Shown piece by piece: positions 49,843 to 58,923 of a DNA stretch of 63,155 bases. The notes beneath the pieces are model-generated. The model had not been told where the DNA came from and did not search any database. It saw only the letters and a list, made by a program, of their open reading frames with translations. The DNA is taken from positions 1 to 63,155 of the forward strand of contig JAADDE010000038.1 of NCBI GenBank assembly GCA_013154085.1. Reading direction: 5' to 3'. Numbering within the stretch: the first letter of the stretch is position 1; each line of letters opens with the position of its first letter. The position numbers and the translations under genes were made by a program. Origin of the DNA: Thermoproteota archaeon. GTDB taxonomy: Archaea; Thermoproteota; Thermoprotei_A; Sulfolobales; Ignicoccaceae.

Positions 49843-50466
49843 ATGAGGGTCTTGAGGCCGAGGTCTGAAGAGGAGGTGGAGCTGGCCCTCGCGGAGGCTA
49901 AGAGGGTCCTCGAGGAAGGCGGCCTAGTCGTCGTTCCCACAGAGACCGTCTACGGAATAGCGTCTAAGCTGGAATACGCGGAGAAGATATACGAGGCCAA
50001 GAGGAGGCCCACGAGCAAGCCCCTCCCGGTCCAGACCCCGCTGGGGAGGCACGGGGAGGTGGGCTATTTCGACGAGAGGGCTGAGGCCCTAGCCAAGGCC
50101 TTCTGGCCCGGCCCGCTGACGATAGTCGTTAGGGCCAAGCCCTCGGTGCCGGAGGCCGTAACTGCGGGAACCGGAAAGGTCGGGATCAGGGTTCCCGCAC
50201 ATCCCTTTACCTTGAAGCTCTTGGATCTCGTCGGGCCCTTGGCAGTGACCTCAGCCAACCTGAGCGGGGGGAAGAGCCCGAGGAGCCCGGAGGAGGTCAC
50301 CGTGGAGGCGGACCTAATGATAGACATGGGGCCCGTCGGGGGCGTGCCCTCAACGGTGGTGGACGTATCGGAGGGGAAGCTGGTGATCCTGAGGGAGGGT
50401 CCAATAAAAAGGGAGGACCTCGAGAGAGCCCTCAGCGGGCTAGGCAGTCCACGCAGAGGTTGGTAG
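49843..50466 (+). CDS. sua5: Threonylcarbamoyl-AMP synthase (Sua5/YrdC)
   Basis: Makes threonylcarbamoyl-AMP for the t6A modification of ANN-decoding tRNAs. The 207 residues hold the YrdC domain: GGLVVVPTETVYGIASKL, YEAKRRPTSKPLPV, FWPGPLTIVV, VGIRVPAHP and SANLSGGKSP. It lacks the extra C-terminal Sua5 domain found in many archaeal homologues (about 340 residues), so it is YrdC-sized. ATG start. The 3' end overlaps the convergent pilin-like gene by 35 bases. Confidence 0.9.
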   Translation: MRVLRPRSEEEVELALAEAKRVLEEGGLVVVPTETVYGIASKLEYAEKIYEAKRRPTSKPLPVQTPLGRHGEVGYFDERAEALAKAFWPGPLTIVVRAKPSVPEAVTAGTGKVGIRVPAHPFTLKLLDLVGPLAVTSANLSGGKSPRSPEEVTVEADLMIDMGPVGGVPSTVVDVSEGKLVILREGPIKREDLERALSGLGSPRRGW

Positions 50467-50923
50467 CTCCCAGGAGCTCTATCTTGGCGTTTGCGTAGTA
50501 TCTGTCGGTGTACAAGCACAGCAAGTACCTCCCCTCGGCCAAGTTGAGCCTCTCCTCCACGACCTTGTAGAGCTGGCTCCCCGCGTAGGAGCTTATCTTC
50601 ACCCCGCTTATCACTCCGGGCTGGAGGACCCTCAGCACCACCGCGTACGCGTAGCCGCCTTCCCCGAGCTCCAGCGGCTCCGGCTTGCTCAGCAGGCCGG
50701 CTCCGTAGAGGCCTTCCGCCACTTGGGCGCACTGCTCCGCCGCGCTGAGGGGAGTTGCCCCGGAGTACTGGGGCCCCAGCAGGGTTACTCCGTAGATCGC
50801 TACCACGGGCTCGGGCCTCCTCTGGGCTCCCGGCTGGAGGAAGATGCTCCCCAAGAGCGCCGCAGAGACCATTACGGCCGCCGTGAGCAGAGCGACCTCG
50901 AGGGTGCCTATGCCCCTACGCAC
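50432..50923 (-). CDS. Pilin-like protein with class III signal (A)
   Basis: A 163-residue protein that starts MRRGIGTLEVALLTAAVMVS: a short basic leader, Gly at residue 4 for prepilin peptidase cleavage, Glu at +5 of the mature chain and a continuous hydrophobic helix, as in type IV pilins. The rest (from about residue 35) is a small exported domain with Cys pairs including NLCVDC near the end. GTG 50923 overlaps the stop of the next pilin-like gene by 16 bases, so they are co-translated. It probably joins a fibre or pseudopilus. Confidence 0.7.
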   Translation of the reverse strand: MRRGIGTLEVALLTAAVMVSAALLGSIFLQPGAQRRPEPVVAIYGVTLLGPQYSGATPLSAAEQCAQVAEGLYGAGLLSKPEPLELGEGGYAYAVVLRVLQPGVISGVKISSYAGSQLYKVVEERLNLAEGRYLLCLYTDRYYANAKIELLGATNLCVDCLAR

Positions 50924-51477
50924 GACGCAACACCCCACAAGTAAGAGCCTCCAACAAGAGTGGTGTTGATGAAGCAAGTGAGCACCTTTTCGCTTCCGTC
51001 GGGGAACACGACGTGGAGCGAGCTGAAGGGGAGGAACGTAGGGTCGGCGCACGTGGCCTTGGGCACTACGGCGCTGGGCCCCAGCGGGTGGAAGGCGTAC
51101 AAGCTGAGTCCGTTGACGTTTTCGAGCGTGAAGTTGCCGTATATGAAGTAGGCCCCCGGCGCGCCGTTGCACGTGAAAGGAACCACCACGTAGGCCTTGT
51201 ACGCCTCGTCCCCCAGCTCCGCGTAGCAGAACCTCACCTTCGCGTAGTTGGTGCCCGCCGGATCCGTCACAGAAGGCGCTGTAGGATCTATGAAGACTAT
51301 GTAGTTGCCGGTGCAGTCTATCCTTATTGCAATCTTTTCGGCCTGTCTGGTGAGCTCGTTTATCTCCTTAACCGCCCTCCCCACGCCGGCCTGCCACTGG
51401 GCCAGCAGCCACGTGAGGGCGCCCAGCACTATCATAGCGATCACGAGCGTCGCCAGTACCTCGCTCTGACCCCTCAT
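50908..51477 (-). CDS. Pilin-like protein with class III signal (B)
   Basis: A 189-residue protein starting MRGQSEVLATLVIAMIVLGA. The basic residue and Gly before QSE plus the long hydrophobic helix match the archaeal archaellin/pilin signal cut by FlaK/PibD. The mature domain has six or more Cys (IDCTGNY, FCYAELG, FTCNGA, ATCADP, TCFIN, SCVGA), suggesting disulfide cross-links. It is first of a two-gene minus-strand unit. A palindrome with a TATA-like core (51499-51520) lies just upstream. Confidence 0.7.
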   Translation of the reverse strand: MRGQSEVLATLVIAMIVLGALTWLLAQWQAGVGRAVKEINELTRQAEKIAIRIDCTGNYIVFIDPTAPSVTDPAGTNYAKVRFCYAELGDEAYKAYVVVPFTCNGAPGAYFIYGNFTLENVNGLSLYAFHPLGPSAVVPKATCADPTFLPFSSLHVVFPDGSEKVLTCFINTTLVGGSYLWGVASCVGA

Positions 51478-51498
51478 CCTCTGCCCGCCCGCATCCTC

Positions 51499-51520
51499 CC
51501 GAACGGTTAAAGCTGTTCGG
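51499..51520. promoter_or_regulatory. Palindrome around TATA box of pilin genes
   Basis: CCGAAC (51499-51504) and its reverse complement GTTCGG (51515-51520) enclose GGTTAAAGCT, whose minus-strand reading AGCTTTAACC is a TATA-like box 28-37 bases before ATG 51477. A regulator bound here would cover the TATA box of the pilin-like genes. The divergent giant gene is 68 bases away on the other side. Confidence 0.45.
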
Positions 51521-51588
51521 CCTACCGTTTCCGTCCACTAACGCTAACTCCGATACTTGAACCATCTCTACGCCCCCTGCGCTCGGGT

Positions 51589-54500
51589 GTGCCGATAGTG
51601 ACTCTGAGGAGGGGCGGAATTGGCAACGTGATTGCACTGATGGTTATAATAACACTGTTGCTGGCGGCAGTAGTGTTAATGGTAAACGTGCTGTCGAGGC
51701 AAGTTGCAGTAAGCCAGAGGACTGTAGAGGCGGTCCAGAAGCAGCAGCTGGCCAGCGAGGTGGTGGCGAGGGTTTCGGCGTGCTACGCGGTGGTCAAGGA
51801 CCCCTTGGCCGGCTACTTGCTGGCCGTAAAGACGAACAACATACCGGCTTTCTGCCAGTACGTTAAGGCAATCCAATCAGTAATGACGATAAACGGACTG
51901 AACACGTCGGCGATGTTCTCCCAGGAGCTGTGGACCTCCGGCAGTAGCTTGGTGGTCTACAGCGCTTGTACAAACAACTACAAGCCCAAGTACGTGACAT
52001 ACGGAGGTCTGAGGATACCGGCTGCCTTGCTGCTCTACCTAGCGCCCGGCGACTACGAGGTAGGGGTCTACAAGGTGCAGATGCTCCTCGACCGGATAGG
52101 ATGGAAGGCGATACCGAACTGCTTCCAGACCACCGGCGGAAGCGTGCAGATAACTACAATCCAGCAGACCACCACGATATTCTCCATAGGCCCCATAACG
52201 GTTCTGGCCAGCGGAGGGGTCAACCCGCTTCAGTACATCTGCCCGCCGCCGAGGGCCGTGGTGGGGGACGACTACGCCTACGAAATTGCTATGGTCCTCA
52301 ACCCCCACTTCAACGGAACTAGGAACAACGTGCCGACCAGCGTCGTTCTGAACCTTAAAGATATAATCGAGAGGAGCGCGCCCACCAGCAGCCCGCTGAG
52401 GTACTACATCGACGACGTCTATATAAGGAACATAACTGTGATGAGGGTAGCCACGACTCCGAGCATATATCAAGTGAGCTGGAGCAGCAGCACGTACTTG
52501 CCGTGGAGCTTCACCTTTCTAAACCTCACGAGCGCCCAGACGCCGCTCCAGAACAGCTCCGGCGTGCTGACCTTCAACTTCACCGCGCCTGCGCCGATGA
52601 CTCCCAACAGCTTGGTGCAGTACAGCGCGGTGGTCTGCCTCTACTTAGGCATAAAGGGCCAGTACCCGCCGGGAAGCCAAGGGCACCCGTTCGACGGCTT
52701 GATCTTCAGCGAGGGCGAGGACGTGACTCCTCCGGGCTCCGCGTATCCGTGCTACAGCTTCAGCGGCTACGACGTGTGCTACGTGCCGCCGGCCAACCTA
52801 ACTACCACGTATGCTAGGAACGTCACAAGCTCGGCCGGTATGAAGTTCGTGGGCCTACAGTATCCCACGGATGCAAGCGTGAGGACGTATAAGATAATAA
52901 TTGAGAACCCCAACGACGTGCCCCTCTACAACCAAGTGGTGAGGGTCAAGTTGCCACCGGAGCTCAACGGAACGGCGATAAGCATTGTCGACCAGTTCGG
53001 AGGCAGTGTGAAGTTCTGCTACGAGACCGTCTTGGGCAACTGCACCAGCGCCCCCGTCAAGGGCGGCGTTCCGGGCCAGCTGAACGTGAGCAGCGGCTAC
53101 GTGTGGGTGAAGGTCCCCTACCTCCCGCCCGGAGACCAAGCGACCCTAACGGTGCTGGCCGGCACCAACGGCGCCTCCTCGCCCTATGAGGTGTTCCCCG
53201 TTTACGTGGACTTCGCCAACGCGAGGATTGAGGTAGACAGCTTCGGCTGGACGTGGAACTTCCCCGGCTACGCGTTCACCCAGAGCGCGGCCGTCTTCCA
53301 AGACCCCAACAACGCGCTCAACTTCGTGTCGAAGGGATGGTCCTTCTCCGTCGCGGCGGTGGTCAGGTGGGACGGGGCCTTCAACTTCAACCAAGAGGAC
53401 GAGCTGAACTACTACATAGACCCCACGTGGAGGGACGGCTCCACGACGCCGGGCTTCGGCTGGGGAGGCGGCGCGGCGCTGTACGCCGGCTACTGGCTGT
53501 ACCCGATAGCGTACCAAGTGGACCCGGCCTCCGGGACCGGTTGGATGCTTGCGGTGTACAGGGGGGCGCCGGTCATCTTGGAGATAGACGACAGCGGCGG
53601 AGCGATATACTTGAGGGCCCAAGCGAGCCAGACCATGGTTCCCGGGCTCAAGTACTTGATTGTGGCCGGCTACGACAACACAACCGGCTCGTGGGAGATC
53701 TACCTCAAGCCGCTCGAGACGCTCGAGGGAGAGGCCCCGACGCTCCCGGAGACCACTGTGGGCAACGTGCTGCTCGAGGAGATCAACCAGTACTTGGGCA
53801 CCACAAACCTCTACTCGCTCATGTACGAGCTGTTCAACGCCGCTACGGCGTCGTTCGTCATCTCCGACGCCAGCCGCTACTACGACCCGCAGCTGACGCT
53901 CGCCTTGGGCACCCGCTCCGAGACCATGTCCAGCTTCTCCGGAGTGATATACAACGTCACGGTCTTCAATAACTATCAGCCGCCCAGCGTGATAGAGCAG
54001 TGCTTGAACAGCTACGACCCCAACGTCTGCCCGGCTGTATATGCCCACACCTCCCGGCCGGACGGCTACGGCCTCAAGGCTTGGGTCACCGGCGCCGGGA
54101 CGGAGTACGCCACGATATACTCGCTGTGGTGGTACGCCGGCACCACGTCGATAACCTTCGTGGACTTGACGGACTGGAGCCAAGTGACGATAAACACCGC
54201 CAACCCGGGCTTCTGCCTGCCGCTGGTTGGAGCGATAAACATAACGGTGGTCAAGGGAGTCAACGTGGTTAAGGGCACAGTCTACGGAGCCCCGCTAAAC
54301 GGAGGGTCGACCGCGTACTACTGCACCCCCTTGTGGACCGCCGCCGGCACCATAGAGAAGGGAATAGTGGGGAAGAACTCGATAGTGCTCAACACCACTT
54401 GGCTCGGCCAGAGCGTGGCTTGGAACTTCTGGTTCAGCCCAGAAGTTCCCAAGGGCACTTACTACGAGGTCAGAGTGGGCATGAACGGCGGCAGCTACGG

Positions 54501-55722
54501 CTACTACGGCGGCACCACCACTACCGGCCCGCCGTGGGCGTCCGTCACCACCTACAACTGGGCGGTCTTCTACCCGTACGTGCCCTCGATAGTGGGCGAC
54601 GGGAGGAGCTGGCTGAAGTGGATGATATATGAGGACAACGACGCGCTGTACCGCTTCATAACGTCGAGGAACGGCTTCTGGGGCGACGCTTGGAGGGTCT
54701 ACCTAGTGCCCTACGCGAGCGAACCGGTCCCGGCGGTGACCGACCCGGAGGAGCACTACTACAACATCATCAAGTACGACCTGGGCGCGCCGGCGGTCTA
54801 CTTCAACGTCTACGAGGGAGGACCGCTGGGCACGATCTTCTACTACGGAACCATAGACCTATCCGGCTACAAGATAGGGACCTCCTACACCCAGCTGCTC
54901 CCCAAGCAGGTTGAGTACATAGGCTTCAGCTACATGGATGCCGACAACACTACAACGATAGGGCAGATAGGCACCGATACGAGGAGGTTCTACTTCATGT
55001 TTGCTAGAACCTTGCCGAGGGTGCCGCTGGAGGACTACGTGCAGGTGCAGGTGCCGGACCTCTACTCGCCGAAGATTGATGCGCCGATAGTGTACATGAA
55101 GAGGAAGGGCTATACGGTTATCAACGTCACCGGGCCGTACAACGCTACCATGACCTTCGACGTGCTGGGCAACGTAAGCGCGAGGCTCAGCTTCAACCCC
55201 TACGGCGCCTACAGCAACGCCACCGGTCCGTACTACGGCCTCAGCAGCTTCTACACCAACGTCACCGTGGCGCCGTTCTGGAACTCCGGCCTGAGCTGGG
55301 AGGGCTACGCTGAAGCGCTTAACATGCCGGTAAGCGACGTGAACAAGTGGACCGTAGTGGCGTTCAACAAGGTGGCAGAGGTGCTCAGCACCGGCGCCAC
55401 CAACTACTACAACAACTTCACGCTGGCGTACATGCCGGAGACCGGAGACTACGTGTTCACTTACAACAACGTGACACAAGAGCTTAACGGCGTCTCGTTC
55501 GTAATAGGGCTGAGCAACACCCTGGGAGCGGTGGAGCTCTACGCCAACGTGACGCCGCCGCTGGTGGTGCTCGCCAAAGGAGCCGTCCCGGTTGACGGGG
55601 TGCTCAGCTGGGCCAAGCTGGGCTACGACGTGAGCAACCTCGACAAGACCAGCATAATAATGATAAACAAGAGGAACTGGTACGTCACAATAAGCGGTCC
55701 TTACTGCATCAAGTGCACCTAA
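51589..55722 (+). CDS. Giant surface protein with pilin-like N-terminus
   Basis: A 1377-residue protein. The N-terminus (LRRGGIGNVIALMVIITLLL) has a basic leader, Gly-Gly and a long hydrophobic helix, resembling a class III signal or a membrane anchor. The rest is extracellular in character: Tyr/Asn/Ser/Thr-rich, few charges, many Asn-X-Ser/Thr sites, scattered Cys. Residues about 420-545 resemble DUF2341-type domains (YKIIIENPNDVPLYNQVVRV onwards, then VWVKVPYLPPGDQATLTVLA); the following region (about 550-790) looks like a LamG/concanavalin-like sandwich. Ends in YCIKCT with no C-terminal anchor. Likely adhesin or fibre component. GTG start. Confidence 0.65.
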   Translation: MPIVTLRRGGIGNVIALMVIITLLLAAVVLMVNVLSRQVAVSQRTVEAVQKQQLASEVVARVSACYAVVKDPLAGYLLAVKTNNIPAFCQYVKAIQSVMTINGLNTSAMFSQELWTSGSSLVVYSACTNNYKPKYVTYGGLRIPAALLLYLAPGDYEVGVYKVQMLLDRIGWKAIPNCFQTTGGSVQITTIQQTTTIFSIGPITVLASGGVNPLQYICPPPRAVVGDDYAYEIAMVLNPHFNGTRNNVPTSVVLNLKDIIERSAPTSSPLRYYIDDVYIRNITVMRVATTPSIYQVSWSSSTYLPWSFTFLNLTSAQTPLQNSSGVLTFNFTAPAPMTPNSLVQYSAVVCLYLGIKGQYPPGSQGHPFDGLIFSEGEDVTPPGSAYPCYSFSGYDVCYVPPANLTTTYARNVTSSAGMKFVGLQYPTDASVRTYKIIIENPNDVPLYNQVVRVKLPPELNGTAISIVDQFGGSVKFCYETVLGNCTSAPVKGGVPGQLNVSSGYVWVKVPYLPPGDQATLTVLAGTNGASSPYEVFPVYVDFANARIEVDSFGWTWNFPGYAFTQSAAVFQDPNNALNFVSKGWSFSVAAVVRWDGAFNFNQEDELNYYIDPTWRDGSTTPGFGWGGGAALYAGYWLYPIAYQVDPASGTGWMLAVYRGAPVILEIDDSGGAIYLRAQASQTMVPGLKYLIVAGYDNTTGSWEIYLKPLETLEGEAPTLPETTVGNVLLEEINQYLGTTNLYSLMYELFNAATASFVISDASRYYDPQLTLALGTRSETMSSFSGVIYNVTVFNNYQPPSVIEQCLNSYDPNVCPAVYAHTSRPDGYGLKAWVTGAGTEYATIYSLWWYAGTTSITFVDLTDWSQVTINTANPGFCLPLVGAINITVVKGVNVVKGTVYGAPLNGGSTAYYCTPLWTAAGTIEKGIVGKNSIVLNTTWLGQSVAWNFWFSPEVPKGTYYEVRVGMNGGSYGYYGGTTTTGPPWASVTTYNWAVFYPYVPSIVGDGRSWLKWMIYEDNDALYRFITSRNGFWGDAWRVYLVPYASEPVPAVTDPEEHYYNIIKYDLGAPAVYFNVYEGGPLGTIFYYGTIDLSGYKIGTSYTQLLPKQVEYIGFSYMDADNTTTIGQIGTDTRRFYFMFARTLPRVPLEDYVQVQVPDLYSPKIDAPIVYMKRKGYTVINVTGPYNATMTFDVLGNVSARLSFNPYGAYSNATGPYYGLSSFYTNVTVAPFWNSGLSWEGYAEALNMPVSDVNKWTVVAFNKVAEVLSTGATNYYNNFTLAYMPETGDYVFTYNNVTQELNGVSFVIGLSNTLGAVELYANVTPPLVVLAKGAVPVDGVLSWAKLGYDVSNLDKTSIIMINKRNWYVTISGPYCIKCT

Positions 55723-56936: not shown

Positions 56937-57275
56937 CTACTGCGGAGAAAGGGCTAAAGCTAGAGGAACCCTCTCCGGGTACTTGCGGAGCTCGCCCTCG
57001 TCCACCAAGTGGAGCTCTATCGGGAACCACGGGGGAATCCCTTCCCTCTCGAGCTCCTCCAAGAGCTCCTCCTTGAGCCTCAGCCTCTCCTCCCGGCTCA
57101 GCTTGTCCTTAGTCACCACGAGCAGGTCGAAGTCGGAGGAGCAGTCGTAGTTCCCCCTAGCGACGCTTCCGGCCACGTAGCCCTCCAGCCCCCTCCTCTG
57201 CAGTACTGCCAGCATCTTAGGGACGTAGTCCTTCCACCTCCGCAGGACGGAGAACCTCCTCAAGGAGAGGGCCAC
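56937..57275 (-). CDS. MNT-type nucleotidyltransferase (antitoxin-like)
   Basis: A 112-residue minimal nucleotidyltransferase. The catalytic motif is VAGSVARGNYDCSSDFDLLV, with Gly36-Ser37 and the metal-binding Asp48 and Asp50. In MNT/HEPN modules this protein can AMPylate and silence the HEPN partner. Start overlaps the HEPN gene end by 16 bases. Reading frame intact, unlike the copy at 39234. ATG/GTG-type start at 57275 and stop 15 bases before Clp1. Confidence 0.8.
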   Translation of the reverse strand: MALSLRRFSVLRRWKDYVPKMLAVLQRRGLEGYVAGSVARGNYDCSSDFDLLVVTKDKLSREERLRLKEELLEELEREGIPPWFPIELHLVDEGELRKYPERVPLALALSPQ

Positions 57276-57682
57276 AGCTCCCTCTCCAGCTCCCCGAGCT
57301 CGCCGATTATTGCTTTGGCGGCCCTCACGAGCTCCTCCGCTTCATCCTTCTCGTACGGGTAGGGCTTGTAGCGGGCCTCGTAGTAGGCCTCTTCAAGCGC
57401 CCTCAGCTCCCTGCGGTACCTCTTAGCCAGCCGCTTGAGCCTCTCGGACAGCCCGCCCAGCCCCTCCACGTCCAAGCTGAAGGCTATCTCCGCCAAGAGC
57501 TCCCTGACCTCATGGCCCCTCCTCTCCTCGCCGCTGAGCCTCAGTATCATTGACTTCAAGTACAGCTGAACCGCCTGCTCGGCGTGGAAGGCCGCTAAGT
57601 CGTAGAGGCCCTCCTCCAGCTCCCTCCCGGCCTCCCTCAAGAACGCCAAGGCCCTCCTCCTCAGCACCTCCCAGGCCTTCAA
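57260..57682 (-). CDS. HEPN domain protein (toxin-like)
   Basis: A 140-residue all-helical HEPN protein. The N-terminal helix reads REAGRELEEGLYDLAAFHAE, followed by QAVQLYLKSMILRLSGE and a C-terminal YYEARYKPYPYEKDEAEEL segment, the RYP-like motif of this HEPN group. HEPN proteins of such pairs are RNases or nucleotide-binding regulators. TTG 57682 follows AAGGTGG. It overlaps the radical SAM gene upstream by 4 bases and the nucleotidyltransferase downstream by 16, so all three are co-translated. Confidence 0.75.
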   Translation of the reverse strand: MKAWEVLRRRALAFLREAGRELEEGLYDLAAFHAEQAVQLYLKSMILRLSGEERRGHEVRELLAEIAFSLDVEGLGGLSERLKRLAKRYRRELRALEEAYYEARYKPYPYEKDEAEELVRAAKAIIGELGELERELWPSP

Positions 57683-58923
57683 GCTACCACCTTGGAAGCC
57701 CTCTTCGGCAAGATAACTCCCTTCCTCCGGAGCTCCACGATCCTCCAAGCGACCTCCTCCTGCTTGAGCCACTGGCCCCAGCCCTTGCCCTCCCCGACAA
57801 GCTTTGCCACCTCCCTCCTGACCCTCGGCGGGAGGGGCGTGGGGTCGGAGAAGGCCAGCGGGGTTCCCGGGAGCGGCATGAAGTAGTGGAGGTGCGCCCT
57901 GGCCCCCAGCTCCGCCAAGTACTTCATTCCCTCGAGCGTTTCCATCATTTCCTCCTCCGTCTCCCCGGGGAGGCCTAAGATGAAGTCCACCTCCGGGACG
58001 AAGCCGTGCTCGACGCTCAGCTCCACAGCCCTCACCACCTCCTCCCACCCGTGGCCCCGGCGGACGCGCTTGAGCACGGCCTCGCTGGCGCTCTGGGCCC
58101 CTATCACCAGCCTCCTGTTGCTGACGTACCTCTTCAGCACCCTTATGCTCTCCTCCGTCACGAACTCCGGTCTCACCTCGCTCGGGAAGGAGCCGAAGAA
58201 TATTCTCATGTTCAGCCCCTTAAGCTTTGAAAGGAGCTCCTCTACGGCCTCCAGCCTCAGCTTAGTGCCGTCGCCCCCGTAGGACAGCGCGTTTGGCGTT
58301 ATGAATCGCAGGTCCCTCAGCCCCAGATCCTTCATTATTCTGGCATACCGGAGCACGTCCTCGACAGGCCTGTGCCTCACGAGTGCCTTAAACATGAAGC
58401 TTGCCTGGCAGTAGGCGCAAGCGAAAGGGCAGCCCCTAGTTATCTCCATGGGCCCGGCGAGGCCGCGCCAGTAGGGCCAAGGGGGGAACTCCTCGAATCT
58501 GGCCAAGCCGCGGGGCCCGGCGAAGCCCTCGTCGCTGTAGACGCCCTTCACCCTCCTCCAATCATCGCCTTCCTCCAGAGCCCTCAGGAGCTCCGGCAGA
58601 GTCTCCTCGCCCTCGCCGTGGACTGCTGCGTCGAAGCCCAAGGCTAGGGTGCCCCAGGGGTCGCCGGTGGCGTGGGGCCCTCCTGCCACCAAGAAAAGCC
58701 TCCCGGAAACCTTCCTCAGGCCCTCGAGGAGTCCTTCGTCCAGCAACATGGGAGTGAGCAGCGTTGCGCCGAGGACTACCTTGTACTTCCCTGCGTACCT
58801 CAGCGCCTCCAGCGGGTCCTTTACGAACCCGGCCTTGAACCCTGAGCTCTCTACGATAGAGATCACGGAGTACGCGCTGTACTTGACGTCCTTTCTCAGC
58901 AGATGGAGGTAGAGGAGCTTCAA
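57679..58923 (-). CDS. B12-binding-like radical SAM protein (MJ_1487-like)
   Basis: A 414-residue protein. The N-terminal 150 residues have the Rossmann-like layout of a cobalamin-binding domain (VVLGATLLTPMLL, FLVAGGPHATGDPWGTL, VHGEGEETLPELL) but no DxHxxG motif. The radical SAM core has Cys165, Cys169, Cys172 in RGCPFACAYCQ, then PEVDFILGLPGETEEEM. It resembles the archaeal MJ_1487-type family; the reaction is unknown to me. TTG 58923 overlaps the TatA-like stop (TTGA). The HEPN gene overlaps its end. Confidence 0.75.
   Translation of the reverse strand: MKLLYLHLLRKDVKYSAYSVISIVESSGFKAGFVKDPLEALRYAGKYKVVLGATLLTPMLLDEGLLEGLRKVSGRLFLVAGGPHATGDPWGTLALGFDAAVHGEGEETLPELLRALEEGDDWRRVKGVYSDEGFAGPRGLARFEEFPPWPYWRGLAGPMEITRGCPFACAYCQASFMFKALVRHRPVEDVLRYARIMKDLGLRDLRFITPNALSYGGDGTKLRLEAVEELLSKLKGLNMRIFFGSFPSEVRPEFVTEESIRVLKRYVSNRRLVIGAQSASEAVLKRVRRGHGWEEVVRAVELSVEHGFVPEVDFILGLPGETEEEMMETLEGMKYLAELGARAHLHYFMPLPGTPLAFSDPTPLPPRVRREVAKLVGEGKGWGQWLKQEEVAWRIVELRRKGVILPKRASKVVA

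Follow-up and report, generated by a model that had tools for sequence, protein, structure and literature searches.

A set of three neighboring genes (B, A, and G) in a 63,155-nucleotide stretch of DNA from a Thermoproteota archaeon of the Ignicoccaceae (hereafter the window) is real, conserved, and functionally coherent. Based on sequence comparisons and on analogy with characterized pili, we consider it probable that the three products constitute a minor-pilin/adhesin module of an archaeal type IV pilus, in which G would be a modular subunit, probably located at the tip. The window is contig C15 of an assembly with 57 contigs (1.18 Mb, 82% complete), and its features are listed in Table 1.

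Table 1. Positions of the three genes, the parts of G, and the intergenic site in the window (↓, predicted cleavage site)
Feature	Position	Strand	Description
Pilin-like A	50432..50923	-	163 aa, GTG start at 50923; leader MRRG↓IGTLEVALL; C-terminal CxxC
Pilin-like B	50908..51477	-	189 aa, ATG start; leader MRG↓QSEVLATLV
Giant modular pilin-like protein G	51589..55722	+	1377 aa; leader (MPI)VTLRRG↓GIGNVIALMV
G N-terminal part, ~residues 1-430	51589..52878	+	class III leader, hydrophobic helix, domain common to 4/4 species
DUF2341 domain of G, residues 500-555	53086..53253	+	profile match
G C-terminal part, residues 1186-1369	55144..55695	+	kept in 4/4 species, also where the middle is replaced
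Dyad-symmetric operator-like site GTTNNCGT-N6-ACGNNAAC	51527..51548	.	midway between the divergent genes

The gene set and its conservation in Ignicoccus

The sequence-only reading had assigned class III-like leaders to three adjacent genes, with a Glu5 in A and the QSE form in B. Both assignments hold. The leaders can be read in all three genes and are kept in four Ignicoccus genomes, two of them taken to be those of I. hospitalis and I. islandicus. In these genomes, A, B, G, and their orthologs share a K/R-G or K/R-A site followed by a hydrophobic N-terminal helix; for I. hospitalis, the predicted cleavage sites are G↓LGALE (A), A↓QSELL (B), and G↓GVAGL (G). Glu+5 is present in all four orthologs of A and xSE (Glu+3) in all four of B; G lacks Glu+5 in 4/4, the I. 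islandicus ortholog carrying a Glu at +3 instead. A, B, and G each contain a single strong hydrophobic segment, which is N-terminal, a second one in G (near residue 875) being only marginal. For G, an alternative in-frame GTG start at 51598 (1374 aa) fits the starts of the orthologs better. The 246-aa frame given for A in a mechanical ORF list was rejected as over-extended; the likely gene is the one in Table 1, which overlaps the 3′ end of B by 16 bp on the minus strand. The same overlap is found in two other species, with a 4-bp gap in the fourth genome. G is transcribed divergently from B and A, with 111 bp between the B and G starts, and has a high content of S/T/N and aromatic residues and of N-glycosylation sequons (24 vs. 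a shuffled mean of 12.4). The CxxC motif lies at the extreme C terminus of both A (residues 157–160, 4/4 species) and G (residues 1373–1376, 55705–55716, 3/4 species), and could be a disulfide or a metal site.

The set occurs with the same divergent layout in four Ignicoccus genomes, which is more than chance; neither B nor G was matched in a fifth Ignicoccus genome (56% complete). In I. islandicus, the three genes are still together despite different neighbors: TatC, Sua5, and Clp1, the neighbors in the window, had no match in 18 kb around the I. islandicus set. This conservation as a unit supports a functional linkage of A, B, and G. Identities between the window and I. hospitalis are 47% for A and 59% for both B and G, compared with 76 to 82% for the flanking TatC, Sua5, and Clp1, a difference that fits fast-evolving surface proteins. 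When 214 genomes of the order were searched with profiles, only Ignicoccus yielded relatives that match A, B, or the N-terminal part of G over the full length; the remaining matches covered mainly the N-terminal helix. The apparent confinement of A/B homology with other families' pilins to this helix counts against the module reading. Scans of the genome collection and of the viral contig collection yielded no relatives, the PDB contained none meaningful by sequence, and A and B had no match of note in Pfam or NCBIfam.

Single-sequence structure models predicted a helix (residues 6–28) and a beta-rich C-terminal domain for A, with moderate to low confidence (pLDDT 66), and a helix (residues 4–48) followed by an all-beta domain for B (pLDDT 58 overall, 77–95 in the helix). 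No pilin was matched significantly when these models were used for fold searches, which, as far as such models can tell, counts against the module reading as well. Weak matches (RhoGDI, Wzt sugar-binding domains, and an archaeal pilus at rank 38 with E 0.24) were not significant and were not used.

The divergent region contains a dyad-symmetric site (GTTTCCGT-CCACTA-ACGCTAAC) that may act as an operator common to both transcription units. Relative to the pattern GTTNNCGTN6ACGNNAAC, the site has no mismatches in the window and in I. islandicus, one in I. hospitalis, and two in the fourth genome (G003), and it lies 38 to 60 nt from both start codons in all four species. Sites with 0 or 1 mismatch numbered three in 363 kb of Ignicoccus loci, all at the divergent region of the set, a count that is partly circular because the pattern was built from the same four regions; the dyad symmetry itself was not a selection criterion. 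Simulated sequence (1.09 Mb) contained none with 0 mismatches and two with 1. The locus of the assembly machine has no site with 0 or 1 mismatch, which counts against the module reading, and the dyad was dropped as a link to that locus.

Several other loci were noticed. A second, stand-alone pilin pair, B′ then A′, is present in the genome of the window (G000:C10:23468-24527, L057) and in I. islandicus (L058:8905-10049); there is no giant partner adjacent in I. islandicus, and the contig from the window's genome ends just upstream in tRNA-like sequence. Two Ignicoccus genomes (L059:2782-3696 and L060:778-1692) encode a class III-like protein of 304 aa (VINTVEVLI) that carries a C-terminal CESC motif. 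In the window itself (56937-58048), a small nucleotidyltransferase-like gene stands beside an HEPN-like frame, an arrangement repeated on contig C42 (L023:7673-8393 and L023:12016-12799); by eye, these neighbors look like MNT/HEPN pairs.

Domains of G and DUF2341 proteins of the order

The proposed DUF2341-like part of G was recovered by profile searches. In the window, the match scored 23.3 bits (E 9e-5) in a whole-protein scan, against a cut-off of 23.4, and 27.4 bits in a genome search; the I. hospitalis ortholog scored 29.7 bits, above the cut-off. A LamG-like part had been proposed too, and this we reject. Laminin_G_3 gave no match in G at E ≤ 1, and a profile–profile comparison with 24 real LamG domains gave a probability of 2.6%, the weak best match sitting at the place originally proposed. 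Elsewhere, a 2534-aa open frame at a contig end (L023:19-7623, G000:C42) has a weak DUF2341 match near its start, and in I. hospitalis (L075:4104-7922), a 731-aa class III-like protein lies beside a 520-aa protein with the sole LamG match in five Ignicoccus genomes.

The G003 ortholog of G is 920 aa long, and its two ends align to window G residues 4 to 430 (BLASTP E 2e-33) and 1186 to 1369 (E 8e-6). The DUF2341-containing middle is swapped for an unrelated, repetitive-looking segment (KGNVEVL, KGNVQIM), which, read by eye, could be a beta-helix. Conserved ends around a replaced middle are as expected of a pilin carrying an exchangeable binding module.

DUF2341 is present in 51 of 211 genomes of the order. 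We inspected 22 DUF2341 loci; the counts that follow were made by eye, and the lineages are not independent. DUF2341 proteins with pilin-like N termini stand beside small pilins, mostly xSE, in four further families, two of which have a T2SSE ATPase in the locus. Ten loci of family f9 (genera g9, g32, g51, and g53) encode an approximately 580-aa protein, two small pilin-like proteins (mostly xSE), and then the DUF2341 protein. In one of these genomes (G032), the approximately 580-aa protein is T2SSF and a divergently encoded 568-aa protein is a T2SSE ATPase; six of the other loci in this group have a divergent Walker-motif protein of similar size. The f9 loci contain several further pilins, in some cases including archaellin-like ISPVIA pilins. 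A T2SSE ATPase also lies within a few genes of the DUF2341 protein in G098 (f6), G035 (f2), and G116 (another f9 genus). A small xSE pilin gene immediately precedes and overlaps the DUF2341 gene in G010, G040, and G177 (f7), G033 (f10), and G098 (f6), and no ATPase was seen near the DUF2341 protein in G010 and G040. Of the inspected DUF2341 proteins whose leader is canonical, all but the I. islandicus, G103, and G063 proteins lack a Glu at mature positions 1 to 6. Most DUF2341 proteins of f9 have a non-canonical leader, which counts against the module reading, and the G184 protein has an apparently ordinary signal peptide.

The assembly machine and known systems

Four Ignicoccus genomes each have a single strong T2SSE ATPase match with two T2SSF proteins encoded after it, away from the triad; a second T2SSE match is weak (~29 bits). 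In all four, the FlaJ/TadC-type platform protein is divided between two neighboring genes (L019:10821-12743, L061:6293-8212, L062:6941-8865, and L063:990-2920). A prepilin peptidase was matched once per genome, and one had been named in I. hospitalis by Podar et al. 2008 (PMC2614490). PF01478, PF00437, and PF00482 are all present in the assembly of the window, on other contigs; this assembly is 82% complete, and two single-contig Ignicoccus genomes agree on a single unlinked machine. Hence, the triad, if assembled, is assembled in trans. These data agree with the earlier observation that no ATPase or platform gene adjoins the triad and support the accompanying idea of a remote machine: each genome has one strong ATPase, a split platform locus, and one prepilin peptidase, none of them beside the triad. 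A pilus locus with ATPase and platform genes around a DUF2341 gene was found in the f9 relatives and not in Ignicoccus.

The suggestion of an undescribed fiber or contact apparatus goes too far, given the DUF2341 and xSE pilin sets of four further families and the previous proposal that DUF2341 proteins are PilY-like tip adhesins of archaeal type IV pili (Makarova, Koonin, and Albers 2016, PMC4858521). G resembles these adhesins in having DUF2341, in being a large secreted protein, and in its association with class III pilins. It differs, judged from their description, in its pilin-type leader and in the distance of the set from an ATPase and platform. The machine-linked f9 clusters (L136-L145) combine an ATPase, a platform protein, two small pilins, the DUF2341 protein, and further pilin-like proteins. 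As in the Ignicoccus set, two small pilins, mostly of the xSE form, adjoin a DUF2341 protein whose N terminus is pilin-like and whose helix starts without Glu. The Ignicoccus set differs in lying apart from its machine and in the divergent transcription of G and the small-pilin genes.

For Streptococcus sanguinis, a tip complex of PilA, PilB, and PilC has been modeled, comprising a Glu5-less subunit and modular pilins (PMC9934059). The likeness to the Ignicoccus set consists of a few pilins that include modular adhesive ones, one subunit without Glu5, and a proposed tip location (PMC9934059, PMC8179133). Unlike the Ignicoccus set, the S. sanguinis proteins are bacterial, carry different modules, and are encoded in the pilus locus, and no sequence homology is claimed; a PilC-type lectin module (Concanavalin A/LamG-like, fused to a pilin module) was not detected in G.

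Within the genus, I. hospitalis encodes a 310-aa class III protein (MKIARKG↓VSPVIATLL; 32.5 kDa after cleavage) near the expected position of Igni_0670, which we take to be the 33-kDa Iho670 fiber protein. It shares with the triad the class III leader and the presumed peptidase and machine, but is a different gene in a different place (L017:7455-8387). For Iho670, cleavage by a prepilin peptidase has been carried out in vitro. A, B, and G had no BLASTP match at E ≤ 1e-3 to the ORFs of the Iho670 region.

The literature that we could consult did not describe the three-gene Ignicoccus set, its separation from the machine, the swapped middle of G, the shared dyad, or the recurring pattern of xSE pilins with Glu-less DUF2341 proteins, and the supplementary tables of Makarova et al. 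2016 may list some of the genes. The I. hospitalis locus tags, which we estimate to be Igni_0360 to 0365, were not found in the literature consulted, and the main text of the I. hospitalis proteomics paper names no pilins.

Proposed role and alternatives

In the module reading, the genome's single prepilin peptidase would cleave the precursors of A, B, and G at their K/R-G or K/R-A sites. The three proteins would then enter a filament via their N-terminal helices, using the remote FlaI-like ATPase and the FlaJ/TadC platform encoded by two genes. Iho670, B′, A′, or another pilin may form the filament body. G, with no conserved Glu and a bulky body, would be seated on the A/B pair, at the tip or close to it, and would present its DUF2341-containing middle as a binding module, and both transcription units would be co-regulated through the common divergent promoter region and the dyad site. 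The machine-linked relatives are the strongest link in this reading. The weakest is the tip position of G, which is proposed because of the analogy with S. sanguinis PilABC and the suggestion that DUF2341 proteins are archaeal pilus tip adhesins. Archaeal pilins of the VSPVIA/ISPVIA type also lack the Glu, so its absence from G is no proof of a tip role; the Iho670-like pilin (VSPVIATL, no Glu) and the Glu at +3 of I. islandicus G thus count against the module reading, as does the size of G, which is far larger than characterized modular pilins.

A filament of the triad's own, distinct from Iho670 fibers and made by the same machine, in which B or A would be the major subunit and G a decorating or capping one, seems unlikely to us. 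The lack of detectable similarity to the ORFs of the Iho670 region speaks for such a filament, as do the stand-alone B′–A′ pair, by which B/A-type pilins may form filaments pairwise, and the view that archaeal major pilins use ATPase–platform pairs in trans (PMC4858521). However, there is only one machine per genome, and the f9 relatives of the triad genes share their locus with several other pilins, suggesting a minor role. It also appears rather improbable that the three proteins are processed by the prepilin peptidase without polymerizing, as membrane-anchored surface or inter-membrane proteins comparable to the bindosome of Sulfolobus with its class III sugar-binding proteins. In Sulfolobus, binding proteins other than pilins do carry class III leaders (PMC4187195), and the wide inter-membrane compartment of Ignicoccus contains unidentified 3 to 6 nm filaments (PMC5468417), but bindosome proteins still need a pilus-like machine, and the small-pilin pair and the machine-linked relatives favor a filament.

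We see a slim chance that the triad forms or anchors a structure specific to Ignicoccus cells, with their double membrane and lack of an S-layer, such as the 3 to 6 nm filaments that tether membranes across the inter-membrane compartment or a cell–cell attachment point, with a type IV pilus machine acting across two membranes. It is very improbable that G is an S-layer or soluble protein with unrelated membrane proteins as neighbors: G has no other strong transmembrane segment and a composition (S/T/N, aromatic residues, and sequons) that would suit such a protein, but Ignicoccus cells have no S-layer (PMC5468417), which makes this alternative unlikely, four species keep both the gene order and the leader of each of the three genes, and class III leaders recur on DUF2341 proteins elsewhere.

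For the order, the inspected loci suggest a rule by which a large DUF2341 protein whose N terminus is pilin-type, usually without Glu, comes together with small xSE pilins. If this rule holds, archaeal pilus-tip proteins would be recognizable from sequence and their binding part would be exchangeable. For Ignicoccus, the host genus of Nanoarchaeum equitans, the triad provides a defined, testable gene set for a probable pilus-borne adhesin, of interest for surface contact and for how appendages cross two membranes.
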